In this document: positions 52,134-61,416 of the stretch, one piece after another | How the letters are laid out: every line of letters begins with the position of its first letter | Position numbering within the stretch: the stretch's first letter is position 1 | NCBI GenBank assembly: GCA_030428565.1 | Contig: JAUIDR010000016.1 | Coordinates: 1-61,711 of the forward strand | DNA length: 61,711 nucleotides | Direction of reading: 5' to 3' | From: Alphaproteobacteria bacterium | GTDB lineage: Bacteria > Pseudomonadota > Alphaproteobacteria > UBA7985 > JAUIBT01 | Program-made: the position numbers and the translations under genes | The notes under the pieces: generated by a model | What the model saw: only the letters and a program-made list of their open reading frames with translations | What the model was told of the DNA's origin: nothing | Databases searched by the model: none

Positions 52134-52253
52134 CGAATGGGCGAGATCAAACGGCCAGGGCCAAACAAACTGAGCCAAACGGGCAGGCTTGGCCGTCGCG
52201 AAATCGGTTCGGAGCCCAGTAACATTCGAACCACGGATCACGAGGTAGCTTTG

Positions 52254-53591
52254 GTGTCTATCGAAGCATTTCTGGCAAAGGTCAGAGACAAAAGCGCAAA
52301 AATCGGCATCTTCGGACTTGGCTACGTCGGCATTCCCCTGGCGCACACCATCCACGAGGCTGGCTTTCAAGTTTTGGGGGTGGACATCGACGCCGAGCGC
52401 GTTGAGGGCCTGAACGCCGGGCGCTCGCCCATCAAGCATATCCCGTCATCGACAATTCAAGCGATGGTGTCAGAGCGCTTCGAGGCTACGCAAGACTTCT
52501 CGCGAACCTCTGAGTGTGACGCTCTATTGATCTGCGTACCCACACCGCTGAACAAGTACCGCGAGCCCGACTTGGGCGCGGTTGAATCCACCATGCAGGC
52601 CATGAGCCCCTATTTTCGCGCGGGCCAATTGCTGGCGTTAGAAAGTACGACCTGGCCCGGCACCACCGCCGAGGTCTTACTGCCTTATGTCGAAGAGCGC
52701 GGCCTGGTGATCGGCGAGACTTTCTTCCTTTGCTATTCGCCCGAGCGCGAAGACCCCGGCAATCCCAACTTCAACACCCAGACCATCCCTAAGGTCATCG
52801 GCGGCGACACAGCCGCTTGCCGCGCAGCGGGCGAAGCGGTCTATGGCAGCTTTATTGATCGTATTGTGGCGGTCTCCTCGACCCGCGCGGCGGAGATGGT
52901 CAAGCTGGTTGAGAACATTCACCGCTCGGTCAATATCGGCCTGGTCAACGAGCTGAAGAAAGTCGCTCACGCCATGGACCTTGATATCTTTGAGGTCATC
53001 GACGCCGCTGCTACCAAGCCCTTTGGTTTTACCGCTTACTACCCCGGTCCTGGTATCGGTGGACACTGTATCCCCATCGACCCCTTCTATCTGACTTGGA
53101 AGGCGCGCGAATTCGGTCTGCACACCCGCTTTATTGAGCTGGCCGGCGAAATCAACGCATCGATGCCGCAGTATGTCGTGGATCGCACCGTCGCAGCACT
53201 CAACCAGCGCGGCAAAGCGCTGTCAGAAGCCAAGGTCTTGTGCCTGGGCATCGCCTACAAGCGCGATGTTGACGATATGCGCGAGAGCCCGTCGGTCTTT
53301 GTGATGGAGATCTTGCGCGATTGGGGTGCCGATGTGGCCTACCACGACACCAACGTGCCGGTATTCCCGAAGATGCGTGAACACCATTTCGACCTTAGCT
53401 CGGTTCCGCTTAAGCCCGAGAGCCTGGCAGGATTCGACGCCGTATTATTGCTGACCGACCACACCGACATAGACTATGACATGGTGCGCCAACACGCGCC
53501 GCTGGTCATCGACAGCCGCGGGCGTTTTCGTGCCGCACAACAAGCCAAAGAAGCGCAAGATCATGCAGGCGACAACGTCGTCGTTGCCTAG
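52254..53591 (+). CDS. wbpA: UDP-N-acetylglucosamine 6-dehydrogenase (WbpA type)
   Basis: 445 residues. The NAD loop is [14 protein letters not shown], the catalytic lysine region is [18 protein letters not shown], and the active-site Cys is in [15 protein letters not shown]. The [10 protein letters not shown] block is typical of the family. It oxidises UDP-GlcNAc to UDP-GlcNAcA, the first step of the wbp pathway. GTG 52254 is chosen with GAGG eight bases upstream; the reading frame upstream is unlike the family. Next: wbpB, wbpD, wbpE. Confidence 0.93.
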
Positions 53592-53677
53592 CGCCCTCGC
53601 GACCTAGCGTCCGCACGATCTGGCACCCGTAAGGCCTGGCTGCCGGTCAAGCCCGCTCAAATTTTCAGGAAAAGTAC

Positions 53678-54670
53678 ATGACTAAGATTGCACACGTGGG
53701 CTGCGGATACTGGGGGAAAAACCTGGTTCGCAATTTCGCCCAACTGGGCGCGCTGGCCGCTATCGTCGAACCCAACGAGGCTCAGGCGGCCAAACTGTCG
53801 GCCGAACACGGCGTGCCGGTTCGCAGTCTAGAGGCGGTTCTGGCCGATCCTGAGATTGACGGCTTATCCTTTGCAACTCCCGCTGTGACCCACGCCAGTT
53901 TGGCCATCCAAGCCATGCAAGCGGGAAAGCACGTCTTCATGGAAAAGCCCCTGGCCCTGTCCGTCGATCAAGGTAAGGAAGTGCTGGCGGTCGGCGAACA
54001 GACCGGCAAATTGGTCATGGTTGGCCACTTGCTGCAATACCACGGCGTTTTCGCCAAGCTGCGCGATCTTGTCAAAGCGGGTGAGCTGGGACGCATCCAG
54101 CACGTCTATTCCAACCGCATGAGCTTGGGCAAATTTCGCTTGGAAGAAAACGTTTGGTGGTCTTTTGCCCCGCACGATATCTCGATGGTGCTGGCTTTGG
54201 TCGGCGAAGAACCGACCAGCGTGACGGCTCAAGGAAACGCTCAAGTGACGCCTGGCATCGCCGATTGGTGTACCGCGCAGTGCCGCTTTGCTTCGGGCGC
54301 TCGCGCGCACTTTAATATCTCTTGGTACCACCCCTTCAAGGAACAACGCCTGGTGGTTATCGGCGATAAGGGCATGGCGGTGTTCGAGGATTCCAAGCCT
54401 GACTGGTCGCAAAAGCTCGCCATTTATCGCCACGGTCTGGAACACGCAGCGGGCCTAGCGCCGGTGCCGGTCAAGGCGGAGCCCGACTATATCGAGGTCG
54501 CCAAGAACGAGCCGCTGAAAGCCGAATGCCAGCATTTTATCGACTGTATTACCAGCGGACAGCAGCCCTTGACCAATGCTCAAGAAGGCTTGGCGGTGCT
54601 GCGCGTCCTGCAATTGGGCGAAGCTGCTCTGCAAGCCAGCTTGGCCGAGGCTGACAAAGGAGACGCTTGA
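53678..54670 (+). CDS. wbpB: UDP-GlcNAcA 3-dehydrogenase (Gfo/Idh/MocA, WbpB/WlbA type)
   Basis: 330 residues. The Rossmann start HVGCGYWGKNLVRNF and the catalytic Glu-Lys-Pro (HVFMEKPLALS) are those of the Gfo/Idh/MocA family. The WbpB/WlbA branch oxidises the 3-OH of UDP-GlcNAcA. The next two genes match the following steps, which supports the call. AGGAAA precedes the ATG, and wbpD starts at the base after its stop. Confidence 0.92.
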   Translation: MTKIAHVGCGYWGKNLVRNFAQLGALAAIVEPNEAQAAKLSAEHGVPVRSLEAVLADPEIDGLSFATPAVTHASLAIQAMQAGKHVFMEKPLALSVDQGKEVLAVGEQTGKLVMVGHLLQYHGVFAKLRDLVKAGELGRIQHVYSNRMSLGKFRLEENVWWSFAPHDISMVLALVGEEPTSVTAQGNAQVTPGIADWCTAQCRFASGARAHFNISWYHPFKEQRLVVIGDKGMAVFEDSKPDWSQKLAIYRHGLEHAAGLAPVPVKAEPDYIEVAKNEPLKAECQHFIDCITSGQQPLTNAQEGLAVLRVLQLGEAALQASLAEADKGDA

Positions 54671-55297
54671 ATGTCGATTGATCCCGCCGCGCAAGTCCAC
54701 CGCGATGCCTTCGTCCACGAGAGCGCCTATGTCGATGGTCAGACCCAAATCGGCGCGGGCAGCAAGCTTTGGCACTTCGTCCACATCCTGCCGCGCACCC
54801 AGATTGGCGAAAATTGCTCGCTGGGGCAAAACGTTATGGCCGGACCCGATGTCCGCGTTGGCGACGATTGCAAGATCCAAAACAACGTGGCGCTCTATAA
54901 AGGCGTCGTGCTGGAGGACAAGGTTTTCTGCGGCCCCTCTTGCGTCTTTACCAACGTCTTGACCCCGCGCGCCCATGTCGAGCGCAAGGATGAATTCGCC
55001 CCTACCTTGGTCAAACAAGGCGCGACCATCGGAGCCAATGCCACCATCGTTTGCGGCAATACCCTGGGCGCCTACTGCATGATCGCCGCTGGCGCGGTTG
55101 TCACCAAAGACGTGCCCGACTTTGCGCTGATGGCGGGCGTTCCCGCACGGCGCATCGGTTGGGTCTCGCGCAGTGGCGAGCGCCTGATTGAGCGCCAGGG
55201 TGACAATTTGGGCGAGGATTTGGTTTGCCCGCGCACGGGTGAGCGCTATCAAGAGAGCGCCGATAAGACCACGCTGGTCTTGCTCGACGCAAACTAA
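54671..55297 (+). CDS. wbpD: N-acetyltransferase WbpD (left-handed beta helix)
   Basis: 208 residues with hexapeptide repeats over about residues 10-160 (for example [42 protein letters not shown]). A C-terminal segment, [10 protein letters not shown], contains a Cys typical of WlbB/WbpD. It acetylates the 3-amino group to give UDP-GlcNAc(3NAc)A. Starts immediately after wbpB; AAGGAGA lies inside that gene's end. 90 bases separate it from wbpE. Confidence 0.92.
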
Positions 55298-55387
55298 GCA
55301 CCAACAAAATCCGGCGGCCAGCAACCCGCCTTCGCCCCTTTTCAAGCGGCAAGCAACGCCGCCGCTGACGTTCTAAGGACCGACACC

Positions 55388-56512
55388 ATGAGCATTGCCT
55401 TCATCGACCTGGCCGCCCAACAAGCGCGCATCAAGGATAAGATCGACGCCCGCATTCAAGCCGTGCTGGCCCACGGCAAGTACATCATGGGGCCTGAGGT
55501 CAAAGAGCTGGAGGCTCAACTGGCTGACTTCTGCGGCGCAAAACACTGCATTTCATGCGCCAACGGCACCGATGCGTTGATGCTGGCGGTCATGGCGCTG
55601 GGAGCGGGCCGTGGAGATGCTGTCTTCTGCCCCAGCTTTACTTTCGCCGCCACCGCCGAAGCGGTCTATGTCATGGGCGCGCAACCGGTCTTCGTCGATA
55701 TCGACGCCGCCACCTATAACATGGACCCGGCCAGCCTTGAACGCGCCATTGCCCACGCCAAAGCACAAGGCCTGACGCCAAAGGGCATCATTCCCGTCGA
55801 TTTGTTTGGCCTGCCCGCCGACTACGACGCAATTCAAGACATCGCCAAGCGCGAGGGCCTGTGGGTCTTGGGCGACAGTGCTCAGGGCTTTGGCGGCGTC
55901 TATAAGGGCAAGACCACCGGCGCCATCGCTGATATCACCACCACCTCGTTTTTCCCGGCCAAGCCTTTGGGCTGCTACGGCGACGGTGGCGCGATCTTCA
56001 CCGACAACGAGGACATGGCCAAGTTGATGGACAGCTTGCGCGTCCACGGCAAGGGCAGCCACAAGTACGATAACGAGCGAATCGGCACCAACTCGCGCTT
56101 GGATACGCTGCAAGCGGCGATCTTGCTAGAAAAGCTGGCGATCTACGAAGATGAAATCGCCGCCCGGCAGCTGGTCGCCCAACGCTATACCAACGCGCTC
56201 TCCAACAGTTTCATCACCCCGCACGTGCCCGCTGGGCTCAGCTCAGTCTGGGCGCAGTACACCTTGCGGGTCCAAGAAGGACAGGATCGCGAAGCCATCC
56301 AAGCCAAGGCCAAAGAACAGGGCGTACCCACCGTGGTCTACTACCCCCGGCCCTTGCATCAGCAGACCGCCTATAAGGACGCACTGACCGACCCTGAAGG
56401 TTTGCTTGTGTCAGAGGCCGCGGCCCAAAGCGTGTTTAGCCTGCCCTTCCATCCCTACTTGGAGGAGGCCACCAGCGAACAGGTTATCTCGGCGCTGAAA
56501 GCCGCGCTGTAA
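55388..56512 (+). CDS. wbpE: PLP-dependent 3-aminotransferase WbpE (DegT/DnrJ/EryC1)
   Basis: 374 residues. The PLP Lys lies in TTSFFPAKPLGCYGDGG, and the cofactor-binding Asp/Gln region is VLGDSAQGFGG. CANGTDALMLAV and NSRLDTLQAAIL are family blocks. It adds the amino group to the 3-keto sugar made by WbpB, using glutamate. Gene order wbpA-B-D-E matches the UDP-diacetamido-glucuronate pathway known from Pseudomonas and Bordetella O-antigens. A terminator follows. Confidence 0.94.
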   Translation: MSIAFIDLAAQQARIKDKIDARIQAVLAHGKYIMGPEVKELEAQLADFCGAKHCISCANGTDALMLAVMALGAGRGDAVFCPSFTFAATAEAVYVMGAQPVFVDIDAATYNMDPASLERAIAHAKAQGLTPKGIIPVDLFGLPADYDAIQDIAKREGLWVLGDSAQGFGGVYKGKTTGAIADITTTSFFPAKPLGCYGDGGAIFTDNEDMAKLMDSLRVHGKGSHKYDNERIGTNSRLDTLQAAILLEKLAIYEDEIAARQLVAQRYTNALSNSFITPHVPAGLSSVWAQYTLRVQEGQDREAIQAKAKEQGVPTVVYYPRPLHQQTAYKDALTDPEGLLVSEAAAQSVFSLPFHPYLEEATSEQVISALKAAL

Positions 56513-56731: not shown

Positions 56732-56771
56732 CCCCCCTGCTATCAAAACCATGCGTCGCCCGTCACAACGC

Positions 56772-56802
56772 AAAAAAAAAGCCGTCGCACGAGGCGACGG
56801 CT
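56772..56802 (-). terminator. Strong orphan minus-strand terminator
   Basis: Perfect 9-bp stem AGCCGTCGC / GCGACGGCT with a 5-base loop, followed on the minus strand by nine T. Both flanking genes are on the plus strand, so no annotated gene explains it. A second weaker hairpin with eight T on the minus strand is at about 56921-56945. Confidence 0.88.
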
Positions 56803-56931
56803 GAAAGTTCCGTTTCATAGAGTAAGCGATCGGGGTGCTTCGGGGCTGTCTCCAGCTCCAAAGCTATACGTAAGAGACACGAACTATGCCTTAAGGTCAA
56901 GCATTAATCCGCATGAAAGCAAAAAAAAGGG

Positions 56932-57136
56932 ATAAATTCCCATTTACCTAAGTTACACCCCACGCCACAATCAGTCGAACCGTTTGGTTTCTTTGCGTCG
57001 CGCGTCTATCCGCATTTTGCAGTGAAATGACAGGGGTATGTGATCGACAACTAGCGTTTTGCACACAAGGACTCGGAGAGTTTTCCCGTCAAGCCTCTCG
57101 TTTTACGGGCTCGACAAAAAGTAAATGGGAATTTAT
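56932..57136. repeat. Perfect 16-bp inverted repeat (56932-56947 and 57121-57136)
   Basis: ATAAATTCCCATTTAC on the left is the exact reverse complement of GTAAATGGGAATTTAT on the right, 173 bases apart. Each arm is itself a near-symmetric TAAAT-4-ATTTA site. The right arm overlaps the probable DUF6502 promoter. No gene is seen between the arms; the whole 56513-57212 stretch lacks any supported gene. Confidence 0.88.
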
Positions 57137-57139
57137 AAC
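57111..57139 (+). promoter_or_regulatory. Probable promoter of the DUF6502 gene with overlapping dyads
   Basis: TCGACA (-35) and TATAAC (-10) match the consensus in five of six positions each, with a 17-base spacer (57117-57133). The -10 overlaps the right 16-bp repeat arm. Two more dyads follow: ATAACA-5-TGTTAT at 57135-57151 and ATCGA-8-TCGAT at 57150-57167. Transcription would start near 57146. Confidence 0.65.
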
Positions 57140-57212
57140 ATTTCGTGTTATCGACTGATAAATCGATTGTAGCAGTTTGCAATTTTTCAACCGCGACCGC
57201 CGAGAGCCCACC

Positions 57213-58094
57213 TTGACCAACCCCGCCCTTCCTTCACCCGCATTGCAGATGGCCTTCCAGCGCATTCTTGTGCCCCTGCTGCGCGGCATGATTCGCATGG
57301 GCCTGACGCTGCCGCTGTTCTTGCCGATCTTGAAGGCGGCCTATGTCGAAGCGGCCGGACAAATCTTGGCGGCTGACAAACGCAAGCTGACCTTGAGTCA
57401 ACTCTATTTGCTAACCGGCGTGCATCGCCGAGACTTGCGGGTCTTGATGGCCCAACCCAACCTGCCGCCGAGCGATAAGGTGCCTCTGATCGCCGCGGTG
57501 CTCAGCGAGTGGCGCCAAAACCCTGCCTTTTTAGACGACAAAGGCAAGCCACGCGGATTGCCGCGTGAGAGCGACGATCCCGACACACTGACCTTCTATC
57601 GTCTGGTCTCTATGCTCAGCCGCGATGTTCATCCAAGCGCTGTCTTGACCGAACTTGAAGCCCGCGACCTGCTCATTCGCCTGCCCGATCACGAGACCGC
57701 AAGCGACAGCGGACAAGAACGCATCTATTTGAAGGATGAAGATGAGATGGCCAAGCAGAGCCAAATCAACAGCCTTCAAGCCATGTCCCATATCGTTGGT
57801 GGCCACTTGGAGACCGCAATTGGCAACACCTTTAAAGAACGCGACCCACACTTTGAGCGCGCTATCGTCTATGATCGCATGTCGTTGAATTCGGTCCAGG
57901 AATTGAAGCAGCTGGCGGAGCAACAATCTGAGGATATGCTCAATACCTTGAACCGTCGCGCTAACGAGCTGGCACTGCAAGACCGGGATCAAGTCGACAA
58001 ATCAGGCTACTTGCTGTTCGGCGCCTTCGTACACAGCGAAGAGAAGCAAGATGCTACAGAGGTTGCAAAGCCTTCAAAAAGCGCCAAAAAATAG
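57213..58094 (+). CDS. DUF6502 family protein
   Basis: About 293 residues, basic and mostly helical, with no signal peptide. A hydrophobic helix near the N-terminus is followed by the DUF6502-like region: Ser-x-x-Tyr-Leu-Leu-Thr-Gly-Val-His-Arg-Arg-Asp (a helix-turn-helix-like block near residue 70), SRDVHPSAVLTELEARDLL, and FERAIVYDRMSLNSVQEL. The family has no known function. TTG 57213 is preferred, with GAGAG ahead; a TTG at 57177 is upstream, and an ATG at 57249 lacks a site. The DUF5666 gene follows on the same strand. Confidence 0.78.
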   Translation: MTNPALPSPALQMAFQRILVPLLRGMIRMGLTLPLFLPILKAAYVEAAGQILAADKRKLTLSQLYLLTGVHRRDLRVLMAQPNLPPSDKVPLIAAVLSEWRQNPAFLDDKGKPRGLPRESDDPDTLTFYRLVSMLSRDVHPSAVLTELEARDLLIRLPDHETASDSGQERIYLKDEDEMAKQSQINSLQAMSHIVGGHLETAIGNTFKERDPHFERAIVYDRMSLNSVQELKQLAEQQSEDMLNTLNRRANELALQDRDQVDKSGYLLFGAFVHSEEKQDATEVAKPSKSAKK

Positions 58095-58165: not shown

Positions 58166-59311
58166 ATGTTGCCGAACACTCGCCCTGCCTCCGATTGCCC
58201 AACGTCGAACACCCGACCCGGAATCGATACCCGCCCCGGAATCGCTACCCGAGGCAGCGCGCGCTGGCGGCACCTGGCTTTGGCGTCTTGGCTGTGCCTT
58301 GGACTGGCGGCGAGCCTTGTCACCCTCGTCGGCAATCCTGCCCAGGGCCAATCGGGCGGCATCATCGGCACCGGCACTCCTTTGTCAGCGCCGAGCCTTG
58401 GCGTGGTTGGTACCGTGACCGATTTCGGTTCGGTCATCGTCAATAAGCTGCGCATCGAGGTGCGCCCCGAGCAAATGCGAGTCGGCCCAGATGCCCGTCC
58501 CCTTAAGCGCGGCGAGCGGGTCTTGATCAAAGCCACCCGCAATGAGCAGGGCTTGCAGGCGGTTGAATTGAGCCCCTTGCCCAAGGTCCAAGGACAACTC
58601 AAGCGCCAAGGTCAGGATTTGACCCTGTTGGGCAAACGCCTGGCCGGGGCGCTCGAAGGCCCCAGCAAGCCCCAGATTGAAGCCCAATTGGCGCGGTTAC
58701 AGCCGGGCCAGTGGGTCGCGGTGGACGCGATTCAAGTCGGCGACCAAGACTTGCTGATTGGTTCGATCGCGGTCATTCCAGCACCGCCGGTCATCGCCAC
58801 CACCGGCGTGCTGGCCTTGGCCCCTGACAGCCATCGCTTTCAAGTTGGCGGCCAGCCGATTGTGCTGAGCAAAAAGGCAACTAGAGGCATGCCCTTTATC
58901 CGCACCGACTTGTTAGGTCGTGTGGTTCGCATCGAGGGCAAAATGCGCTTGGACGGCTTGCTAGAGGTCATTACCTTCACTCCCGATCCGGTAGCCAACG
59001 CGCTGAAGCAAGAAAAACCGCTGACGGTCGAGCTTGAAGGTTCCTATGAACGCAAAGGCGCAACCCTGGTCGTCAGCAGTGATATCGCGCGCATGCAGGT
59101 CGCTGCAGCCGCTTATCCCAAAGTTACCGCGAATGCGGGACCAGCGCTGATTTCCGCCCAGCTCTTGCCGACGGGCTTCTTGCAAATCACCGATGTCCGC
59201 CCCTGGCAGCCTGCGGTTAAACCCAGCCCACCGCCACCACCACCGCCGATGGGCTATTGGTATTTCGACGGCTACTATTGGCATTTCATGCCCGTGGTTA
59301 ACCCGCGATAA
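58166..59311 (+). CDS. DUF5666 domain-containing secreted protein
   Basis: 381 residues. The N-terminus has NTRPGIDTRPGIATRG repeats (18-bp DNA units) before a membrane-targeting helix (about 36-56) ending near AQGQSGG. The body contains several beta-rich OB-like repeats with VGTVTDFGSVIVNKLRIEV and RVVRIEGKM, as in DUF5666. The C-terminus is a proline run and an aromatic tail (GYWYFDGYYWHF). It is probably periplasmic or surface-exposed. DUF5666 and DUF6502 genes appear together here; their role is unknown. Confidence 0.8.
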   Translation: MLPNTRPASDCPTSNTRPGIDTRPGIATRGSARWRHLALASWLCLGLAASLVTLVGNPAQGQSGGIIGTGTPLSAPSLGVVGTVTDFGSVIVNKLRIEVRPEQMRVGPDARPLKRGERVLIKATRNEQGLQAVELSPLPKVQGQLKRQGQDLTLLGKRLAGALEGPSKPQIEAQLARLQPGQWVAVDAIQVGDQDLLIGSIAVIPAPPVIATTGVLALAPDSHRFQVGGQPIVLSKKATRGMPFIRTDLLGRVVRIEGKMRLDGLLEVITFTPDPVANALKQEKPLTVELEGSYERKGATLVVSSDIARMQVAAAAYPKVTANAGPALISAQLLPTGFLQITDVRPWQPAVKPSPPPPPPPMGYWYFDGYYWHFMPVVNPR

Positions 59312-59616: not shown

Positions 59617-61416
59617 ATGAATTGGTTCCCTGGAACTTGGCCCCAGTTGGATTGGCAACTGGATCAACTGACCGCGCTTGGCTTATTGGCTGGGGTGCTG
59701 GTGCTCTTCATTTGGGGCAAACTGCGTTATGATCTTGTGGCCATGACCGCCCTGATGATGGCGGTTGTGCTGGGCGTTGTGGCCCCCGAAAAGGCCTTCA
59801 GCGGCTTTGGCCACCCGGCGGTCATTACCGTGGCCTTGGTGCTGGTGCTCAGCCAAGCCATCCAGCAATCGGGCGTCATCGACATCATGGCCCGTCCCTT
59901 GTCCCGATTGTCCGACCGTCCCATTTTGTTTTTGGTGGCCTTGTGTGTCTTTGCTGCCCTGCTTTCCGGCTTTATGAACAATGTCGGCGCGCTGGCCTTG
60001 TTGATGCCGCTGGCGCTCTCCTTGACGGACCGCCCCTGGCTGGTGCTGATGCCGCTGTCGTTTGCAACCATCCTGGGCGGCATGACAACCCTAATCGGCA
60101 CCCCGCCCAATATCATCGTGTCCTCCTTTCGCAGCCAAATCGTCGGCGAGGGATATGGCTTGTTCGACTTCAGCGCGGTCGGCTTCAGCTTGGCCGTTTT
60201 GGGTGTCCTGTTCGTGGTCTTTATCGGCTGGCGTTTGCTGCCGCAGCGCAAAGACACACAGCGTCATACAGACGTCTACTCTGACCATGATTTTTTGACC
60301 GAAATCGAGGTGCCCGAAGATTCCGAGCTGCTCAACACCCGCATCGGTGATCTTGAGCACAACCACGCGGGCGAAGTCACCATCATCGGCCTAATCCGCC
60401 GCTCGACCCGCATCTATGCCAATCTGCGTGTCGCTCTGATTCGCCCCGGCGATATTCTGATCGTGCGCGCCTCGCCCGAAGAGCTAGAAGCTTTTCTGGA
60501 CGATACCGACCTTCGCGTTTGGGGCGCGGATCGCTTCGAAGAGGAGCACTTGACCGATGCGGAAGTCGGCCTGCTGGAGGTCGTCGTTTCTTCCGGTTCC
60601 GTGCTGGTCGGGCGCACTCCGAAGGATATGCGCTTTCGCCGCCGCCACGGCGTCAACCTGCTGGCCATCTCTCGCGAAGGCGAGGCGATCCACAACCGCC
60701 TGGCGCACGTGGTGTTGCGGGCCGGCGACGTTCTGTTGATGCAAGGCAGCCAAGAACACCTGCGCGATACTATGGTGGGCTTGGGTTGCCTACCGATCGC
60801 GTCCAAGCAAATCTCCATCTCCCGCGGTGAGCTGCGCTTGCTGCCCGTGGCCTTTTTCATGGCCGCGATTGCCGCGACCGCATTCGGTCTGCTGCCGATC
60901 TACATCAGCTTTGCCTTGGCGTTGGGCGCAACCGTGCTGACGCGCCAGTATTCGGTCGAGGGGCTGTATAGCGCCATTGACTGGCCCATCATTGTGCTGC
61001 TGGCGGGCATGATTCCTTTGGGCGAAGCGCTGCTGTCGACCGGGGCCACGACCCAGATTTCGACCCTATTGGTCCAGCTCACCCAAGGCCTGCCGGTCTG
61101 GGTCATCATAACCGCCATCATGCTTGTCACTATGACGCTGTCGGACCTGATGAATAACGCTGCGACCGCGGTGGTCATGGCGCCCCTCGCCGCCGAGGTC
61201 GCCAATAAGCTGGGCTACTCGCCGGACCCTTTCTTGATGGCGGTAGCGCTGGGGGCTTCCTGCGCCTTCTTGACCCCAATCGGGCACCAAAACAACCTGC
61301 TCGTCATGGGCCCGGGCGGCTATCGCTTCGGCGATTATTGGCGCATGGGACTGCCAGTACAGCTCATCATTGTTGGCGTGGGAATTCCGCTCCTACTGCT
61401 GGTTTGGCCGCTCTAG
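59617..61416 (+). CDS. SLC13 family permease with two TrkA-C domains
   Basis: 599 residues with a DASS/SLC13 arrangement. The two helical halves each carry a hairpin with the family pattern: FMNNVGALALLMPLALS ... GTPPNIIV in the first half and DLMNNAATAVVMAPLA ... TPIGHQNNLLVMGPGG in the second. Between them lie two RCK_C/TrkA-C modules (about 225-390), with LNTRIGDLE and RRRHGVNLLAISREG. Such proteins move dicarboxylates, sulfate or other anions; the ion is not evident. AAAGGA precedes the ATG. Confidence 0.93.
   Translation: MNWFPGTWPQLDWQLDQLTALGLLAGVLVLFIWGKLRYDLVAMTALMMAVVLGVVAPEKAFSGFGHPAVITVALVLVLSQAIQQSGVIDIMARPLSRLSDRPILFLVALCVFAALLSGFMNNVGALALLMPLALSLTDRPWLVLMPLSFATILGGMTTLIGTPPNIIVSSFRSQIVGEGYGLFDFSAVGFSLAVLGVLFVVFIGWRLLPQRKDTQRHTDVYSDHDFLTEIEVPEDSELLNTRIGDLEHNHAGEVTIIGLIRRSTRIYANLRVALIRPGDILIVRASPEELEAFLDDTDLRVWGADRFEEEHLTDAEVGLLEVVVSSGSVLVGRTPKDMRFRRRHGVNLLAISREGEAIHNRLAHVVLRAGDVLLMQGSQEHLRDTMVGLGCLPIASKQISISRGELRLLPVAFFMAAIAATAFGLLPIYISFALALGATVLTRQYSVEGLYSAIDWPIIVLLAGMIPLGEALLSTGATTQISTLLVQLTQGLPVWVIITAIMLVTMTLSDLMNNAATAVVMAPLAAEVANKLGYSPDPFLMAVALGASCAFLTPIGHQNNLLVMGPGGYRFGDYWRMGLPVQLIIVGVGIPLLLLVWPL

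Follow-up and report, generated by a model that had tools for sequence, protein, structure and literature searches.

Autoregulated helix-turn-helix (HTH) repressors, of which TetR/tetA is an example, have paired operators in divergent control regions. The locus described here lies within positions 1 to 61,711 of contig JAUIDR010000016.1 (assembly GCA_030428565.1, Alphaproteobacteria bacterium), and this whole 61.7-kb stretch of analysed DNA is called the window below. The locus resembles the TetR/tetA type in that palindromic operators lie over both predicted divergent promoters, the regulator gene belongs to one of the two units, and an operator sits inside a promoter core; it differs in that DUF6502, the putative regulator, has neither a described DNA-binding role nor a detectable HTH family match, and in that the divergent unit is a predicted small RNA (sRNA). 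The layout is therefore of a known kind, an autoregulated repressor with divergent operators, and it is DUF6502 as the regulator and the sRNA that appear to be new. The protein at the locus is a clear member of DUF6502 (PF20112), which occurs with DUF5666 (PF18914); no function is known for either family. In the literature searched, DUF6502 was not mentioned, none of six operator variants was printed, and DUF5666 was mentioned in passing in four papers. We assign a probability of roughly 0.77 to the reading that the operators are bound by DUF6502 as an HTH-type protein, which most likely represses the sRNA and DUF6502-DUF5666.

The starting point was a perfect 16-bp inverted repeat reported in the initial annotation, and the letters at both arms confirm that it is exact: ATAAATTCCCATTTAC at 56932-56947 and its reverse complement GTAAATGGGAATTTAT at 57121-57136 (both given on the plus strand). 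No other short-spaced 16-bp inverted pair was found in the window, and none appeared in 3,000 simulated 700-bp regions of the same first-order base composition. Two exact copies of TAAATNNNNATTTA are present in the 3.5 Mb genome, both at the DUF6502 locus. G001 and G002, the other two genomes of the genus, carry the left arm unchanged; the right arm is likewise unchanged in G001 and differs at one position in G002. The arms are spaced 189, 189, and 188 bp apart in the three genomes, and the DNA between them is only about 48% identical across the three genus members. The initial annotation had proposed looking for the arms upstream of DUF6502 orthologues, and they are present there throughout the genus, with an equivalent operator in other genera. 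Both arms are the genus version of a wider DUF6502-linked motif.

The wider motif was derived solely from DUF6502 loci of other genera, whose DUF6502 genes carry upstream palindromes. Within 260 bp upstream of the gene, 45 sites matching TGGG-N7-CCCA (≤1 mismatch) were found in 23 loci, a density 30 times that of the rest of the same loci, and the reversed control pattern gave 2 sites against these 45. A position weight matrix (PWM) trained on the 45 sites, which lie upstream of 23 DUF6502 genes from 14 families of Pseudomonadota with the genus left out, describes a 21-bp motif with the consensus AnGTGGGAAAnTTTCCCACnT. When the window was scanned with this PWM, positions 56925-56945 ranked first at about 20 bits (19.97; 19.08 in a second scoring) and positions 57123-57143 second at about 17 bits (17.13; 15.98 in the second scoring), and the third-best position reached about 9 bits (8.64). 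In 8 Mb of simulated sequence, the left-site score was reached about twice, and the right-site score was reached about once per Mb. A strong site was also present in all 12 held-out plasmid-borne DUF6502 loci, at 14.6 to 31.4 bits (the Azospirillum palindrome had been seen beforehand, so that locus was not blind); these loci come from Azospirillum, Rhizobium, Methylocystis, Microvirga, Pseudoroseomonas, and Mesorhizobium, and none is in the PWM.

The two sites define a register different from the one first described. Operator 1, on the sRNA side (56925-56945, centre 56935), is AAAAGGGATAAATTCCCATTT, a near-perfect 21-bp palindrome matching at 7 of 8 arm positions and kept in G001 and G002, and operator 2, on the DUF6502 side (57123-57143, centre 57133), is AAATGGGAATTTATAACATTT, matching at 6 of 8 arm positions, with its CATTT half kept in the sibling genomes. 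The dyad reads AAATGGGA-N5-TCCCTTTT on the left and AAATGGGA-N5-TAACATTT on the right; it is centred on ATTTA, not on GGGA, and matches the family-wide TGGGA-N5-TCCCA. Each arm had instead been described as a TAAAT-4-ATTTA dyad, and the DNA could on that account be a site of 5-4-5 geometry like those of the CRP/FNR type, unrelated to the DUF6502 motif. Both arms match TAAAT-N4-ATTTA perfectly, the pattern occurs nowhere else in the genome, and its left flank, GTAAA, is kept in both arms. We nevertheless consider this reading very improbable: the PWM picks out both sites although no sequence of the genus went into it, ATTTG in the right arm of G002 breaks TAAAT-4-ATTTA, and the TGGGA-N5-TCCC register, unlike TAAAT-4-ATTTA, accounts for the conservation of CCC at the left site and of CATTT at the right. 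The arms, moreover, do not have the CRP/FNR-type sequence TTGAT-N4-ATCAA. TAAAT-4-ATTTA appears to be a by-product.

The DUF6502 gene (57213-58094, plus strand) encodes a 293-amino-acid protein that matches PF20112 with an E value of 2e-18 (66.7 bits versus a cut-off of 27); the TTG start was chosen on the grounds that all three genus members have a start codon at this aligned position. Its best promoter match is TCGACA-17-TATAAC at 57111-57139 (plus strand), and operator 2 overlaps the putative -10 hexamer TATAAC. This near-consensus promoter is present as the initial annotation had it, but the siblings do not share its -35 hexamer and have ACCACA and GATCAA instead. Two additional dyads noted downstream both exist; ATAACATTTCGTGTTAT is partly kept in the siblings, whereas ATCGA..TCGAT is not. 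The operator centres lie 198, 198, and 197 bp apart in the three genus genomes, a near-constant spacing that is compatible with looping. The proposal that two operators serve one dimeric regulator gains from the comparative motif evidence and needs amending in three respects: the dyad has another register, the left arm is not merely auxiliary, as it sits at the promoter end of the predicted divergent sRNA gene, and neither the proposed -35 hexamer nor one of the two additional dyads is conserved.

In a three-genome alignment, the strongly conserved part is found leftward of the left arm, beyond the region that had been annotated initially. A 194-bp block there is 83, 75, and 79% identical in the three genus pairs, above the DUF6502 coding sequence (77, 70, and 70%), and its surroundings are 38 to 49% identical (38% upstream of the terminator, with the DNA between the arms near the top of this range). 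Read on the minus strand, the block begins at the operator and folds into three hairpins in all three species. The predicted sRNA gene is about 155 nt long (56771-56926, minus strand), with an uncertain 5' end between about 56930 and 56916, and ends in an intrinsic terminator hairpin at 56780-56802 (minus strand) followed by a T run at 56772-56779. It contains an invariant 30-mer, AGCACCCCGATCGCTTACTCTATGAAACGG, and its predicted fold is more stable than those of shuffled sequences (z-score, -3.26). Across the three species, 100% of the pair cells of the terminator are standard; compensatory changes are seen at two of its pairs and at two pairs of the middle hairpin. With three sequences, covariation exceeds that of shuffles only weakly (57 of 500 shuffles equal it). 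The block could instead be some other conserved element in the DNA, or a short coding sequence that has gone unrecognised. The sRNA is, after all, a prediction, covariation is limited with three sequences, and no Rfam family matches at the gathering threshold; on the other hand, the block has no reading frame that stays open in each of the three species, the minus-strand terminator hairpin with its T run keeps its pairing through compensatory changes, and each of the three hairpins folds in every species, which leaves a small chance for these alternatives. We therefore describe the conserved block as a predicted sRNA gene, new and genus-restricted, that is divergent from DUF6502-DUF5666.

The predicted sRNA is like the Rfam sRNA families, 6S included, in its size and its intrinsic terminator and unlike them in having no gathering-threshold match; the sole Rfam match in the window is a tRNA. 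Below-threshold matches to known Rfam sRNAs rest mostly on the terminator hairpin, and 6S RNA (RF00013) was rejected as a candidate, with no match in the window and the 6S gene of this genome on another contig. A covariance model of the sRNA matched in 3 of 11 genomes of the order, all in the genus, and among 385 genomes of the class it gave nothing convincing outside the genus. Matches of 26 to 30 bits in three members of the class were not accepted as sRNAs of other genera, as they span 45 to 74 nt, far shorter than the model. Predicted pairing of the sRNA with the leaders of neighbouring mRNAs was weaker than random. In several other genera, the gene divergent from DUF6502 codes for a small protein that has no Pfam match and begins like a signal peptide, where the genus has the sRNA (L020:7514-7873, L022:567-947, L094:1568-2119, and L099:842-1525). 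Convergent to the sRNA terminator, window positions 52137-56512 carry a WbpA/B/D/E-like set of sugar-nucleotide genes (dehydrogenase-like, GFO/IDH/MocA oxidoreductase, hexapeptide acyltransferase, and DegT aminotransferase).

Several observations bear on which protein binds the operators. An HTH-like block in DUF6502, KLTLSQLYLLTGVHRRDLRVLMA (residues 58 to 80; 57384-57452, plus strand), is a putative recognition element identified in an alignment of 32 family members, in which S..xxTG.HRK(D/E)(V/I) is conserved and S62, G69, and R72 are invariant. The operator is present in 23 of the 26 members with His71 and in none of the 6 with Thr, Asn, or Pro (Fisher P = 9e-5, uncorrected for relatedness), two Thr members carry TTGGGA-N6-TCCCAA, and genomes of the same order whose DUF6502 members read HRREI (group f2) have the variant palindrome GTGAGC-N5-GCGCAC only. 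Operator and recognition element would be expected to covary in this way if DUF6502 were the cognate regulator. Loci L047 and L048 have GLTRK instead of G-HRK, with TTGGGA-N6-TCCCAA about 46 to 49 bp before the DUF6502 match and the half-sites one base further apart. Structure models of DUF6502 have HTH secondary structure at low confidence (pLDDT, 44 and 55). Searches of DUF6502 against HTH families gave nothing above threshold and one weak match, and those against solved structures gave no match.

The exact form GTGGGAN5TCCCAC was found in 16 of the 24 genomes that have DUF6502 and in 2 of the 24 that lack it, and most of these sites are at the DUF6502 gene. It is conceivable that another, unrelated transcription factor binds the operators and controls DUF6502 modules everywhere, given that binding by DUF6502 is something we infer and that no HTH Pfam family scores above threshold. 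Such a factor would have to account for three things: genomes that lack DUF6502, members of the same genera (G291 and G368) among them, hardly ever have the sites; the sites accompany DUF6502 on plasmids of several genera; and their type goes with a residue in the HTH-like block of DUF6502 itself. We hold it to be improbable. DUF6502 is very probably the DNA-binding protein at these operators, and the same comparisons suggest that DUF6502 proteins are gene regulators. The family is present in about 4 to 5% of the genomes sampled from the class and the phylum. A viral origin was considered and rejected, viral contigs having neither a DUF6502 relative nor the sRNA core, as was a defence system, with no PADLOC match.

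The partner gene, at 58166-59311 (plus strand), adjoins DUF6502 and encodes a DUF5666-like protein (PF18914; E value, 2.3e-5; 25 bits, just under the cut-off of 27), an assignment that its place beside DUF6502 supports. DUF6502-DUF5666 pairs are found in many Alphaproteobacteria, and pairs with overlapping ends are annotated in Azospirillum, Rhizobium, Methylocystis, and Pseudoroseomonas. After DUF5666, the window carries a CitMHS-type transporter with two TrkA_C domains (59617-61416), in the same order as in G001. In the seven Rhizobium loci of the held-out set, the operator is absent upstream of DUF6502 and stands instead between DUF5666 and the gene that follows, where it fills the spacer of TTGACA-N17-TTTATT (L036:4885 and six other loci); where annotated, the following gene encodes a small protein of about 80 amino acids with a conserved ATWENRAQII motif. 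The position of the Rhizobium site indicates that the site follows the presence of DUF6502 and not only DUF6502's own promoter, and this layout also implies that autoregulation is not universal.

No further exact operator was found elsewhere in the organism's own genome, and a one-mismatch site common to G001 and G002 was discarded as an additional genus operator because it falls inside a coding repeat. In other genomes, operators were seen near further genes. An exact copy at L091:1938 (G334:C5:5436) lies about 75 bp upstream of the gene for an RTX-repeat protein (HemolysinCabind, Peptidase_M10_C), which is a possible further target of DUF6502. Two operators at L090:2231-2290 (G255:C38:82770) are upstream of a secreted protein resembling an ABC-transporter solute-binding protein, and two at L087:2168-2220 (G024:C1:263701) are upstream of an SbmA/BacA-like transporter on the minus strand, about 2 kb from DUF6502.

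In the mechanism we propose, DUF6502, presumably as a dimer, would bind TGGGA-N5-TCCCA palindromes at two places, one at the start of the predicted minus-strand sRNA gene (56925-56945) and one over the predicted promoter of the DUF6502-DUF5666 operon (57123-57143). It would most likely repress both units, so that its own level would be held constant and coupled to that of the sRNA. From the sequences we infer that DUF6502 is the binder, that binding means repression, and that the block is transcribed. The genus has retained the two operators and the sRNA block while the DNA between them diverges, and in more than 12 loci a TTGACA/G promoter, mostly that of the divergent unit, has its 17-bp spacer taken up exactly by the operator, where a bound protein would obstruct RNA polymerase. 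Autoregulation of DUF6502, thought plausible in the initial annotation, is well supported by the comparative sequence evidence, which points to it indirectly. Because the sRNA-side operator, the stronger of the two, is not accompanied by convincing sigma-70 -35/-10 hexamers, DUF6502 might activate the sRNA while repressing itself. This seems unlikely to us, though less so than binding by an unrelated factor, since in other genera the divergent-unit operator takes up the -35/-10 spacer in the manner of a repressor site, and since the first sRNA hairpin begins no more than about 10 nt from the operator edge, leaving no room for a promoter downstream.

Beyond repression of both units at this locus, we can entertain a broader picture, tentatively and with the odds against it as a whole. 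DUF6502 might be a widespread, undescribed family of dimeric repressors in Pseudomonadota whose specificity can be read from the recognition helix, with HRK specifying TGGGA-N5-TCCCA, HRREI specifying GTGAGC-N5-GCGCAC, and T-RK specifying TTGGGA-N6-TCCCAA; in this genus it might have captured an sRNA, and the 198-bp spacing might serve a repression loop.

The analysis reveals a predicted sRNA gene that family-based annotation had missed, and the operator motif could be used to find genes controlled by DUF6502. It would also give a family without a role a testable function, that of a transcription regulator, together with a specific DNA target.
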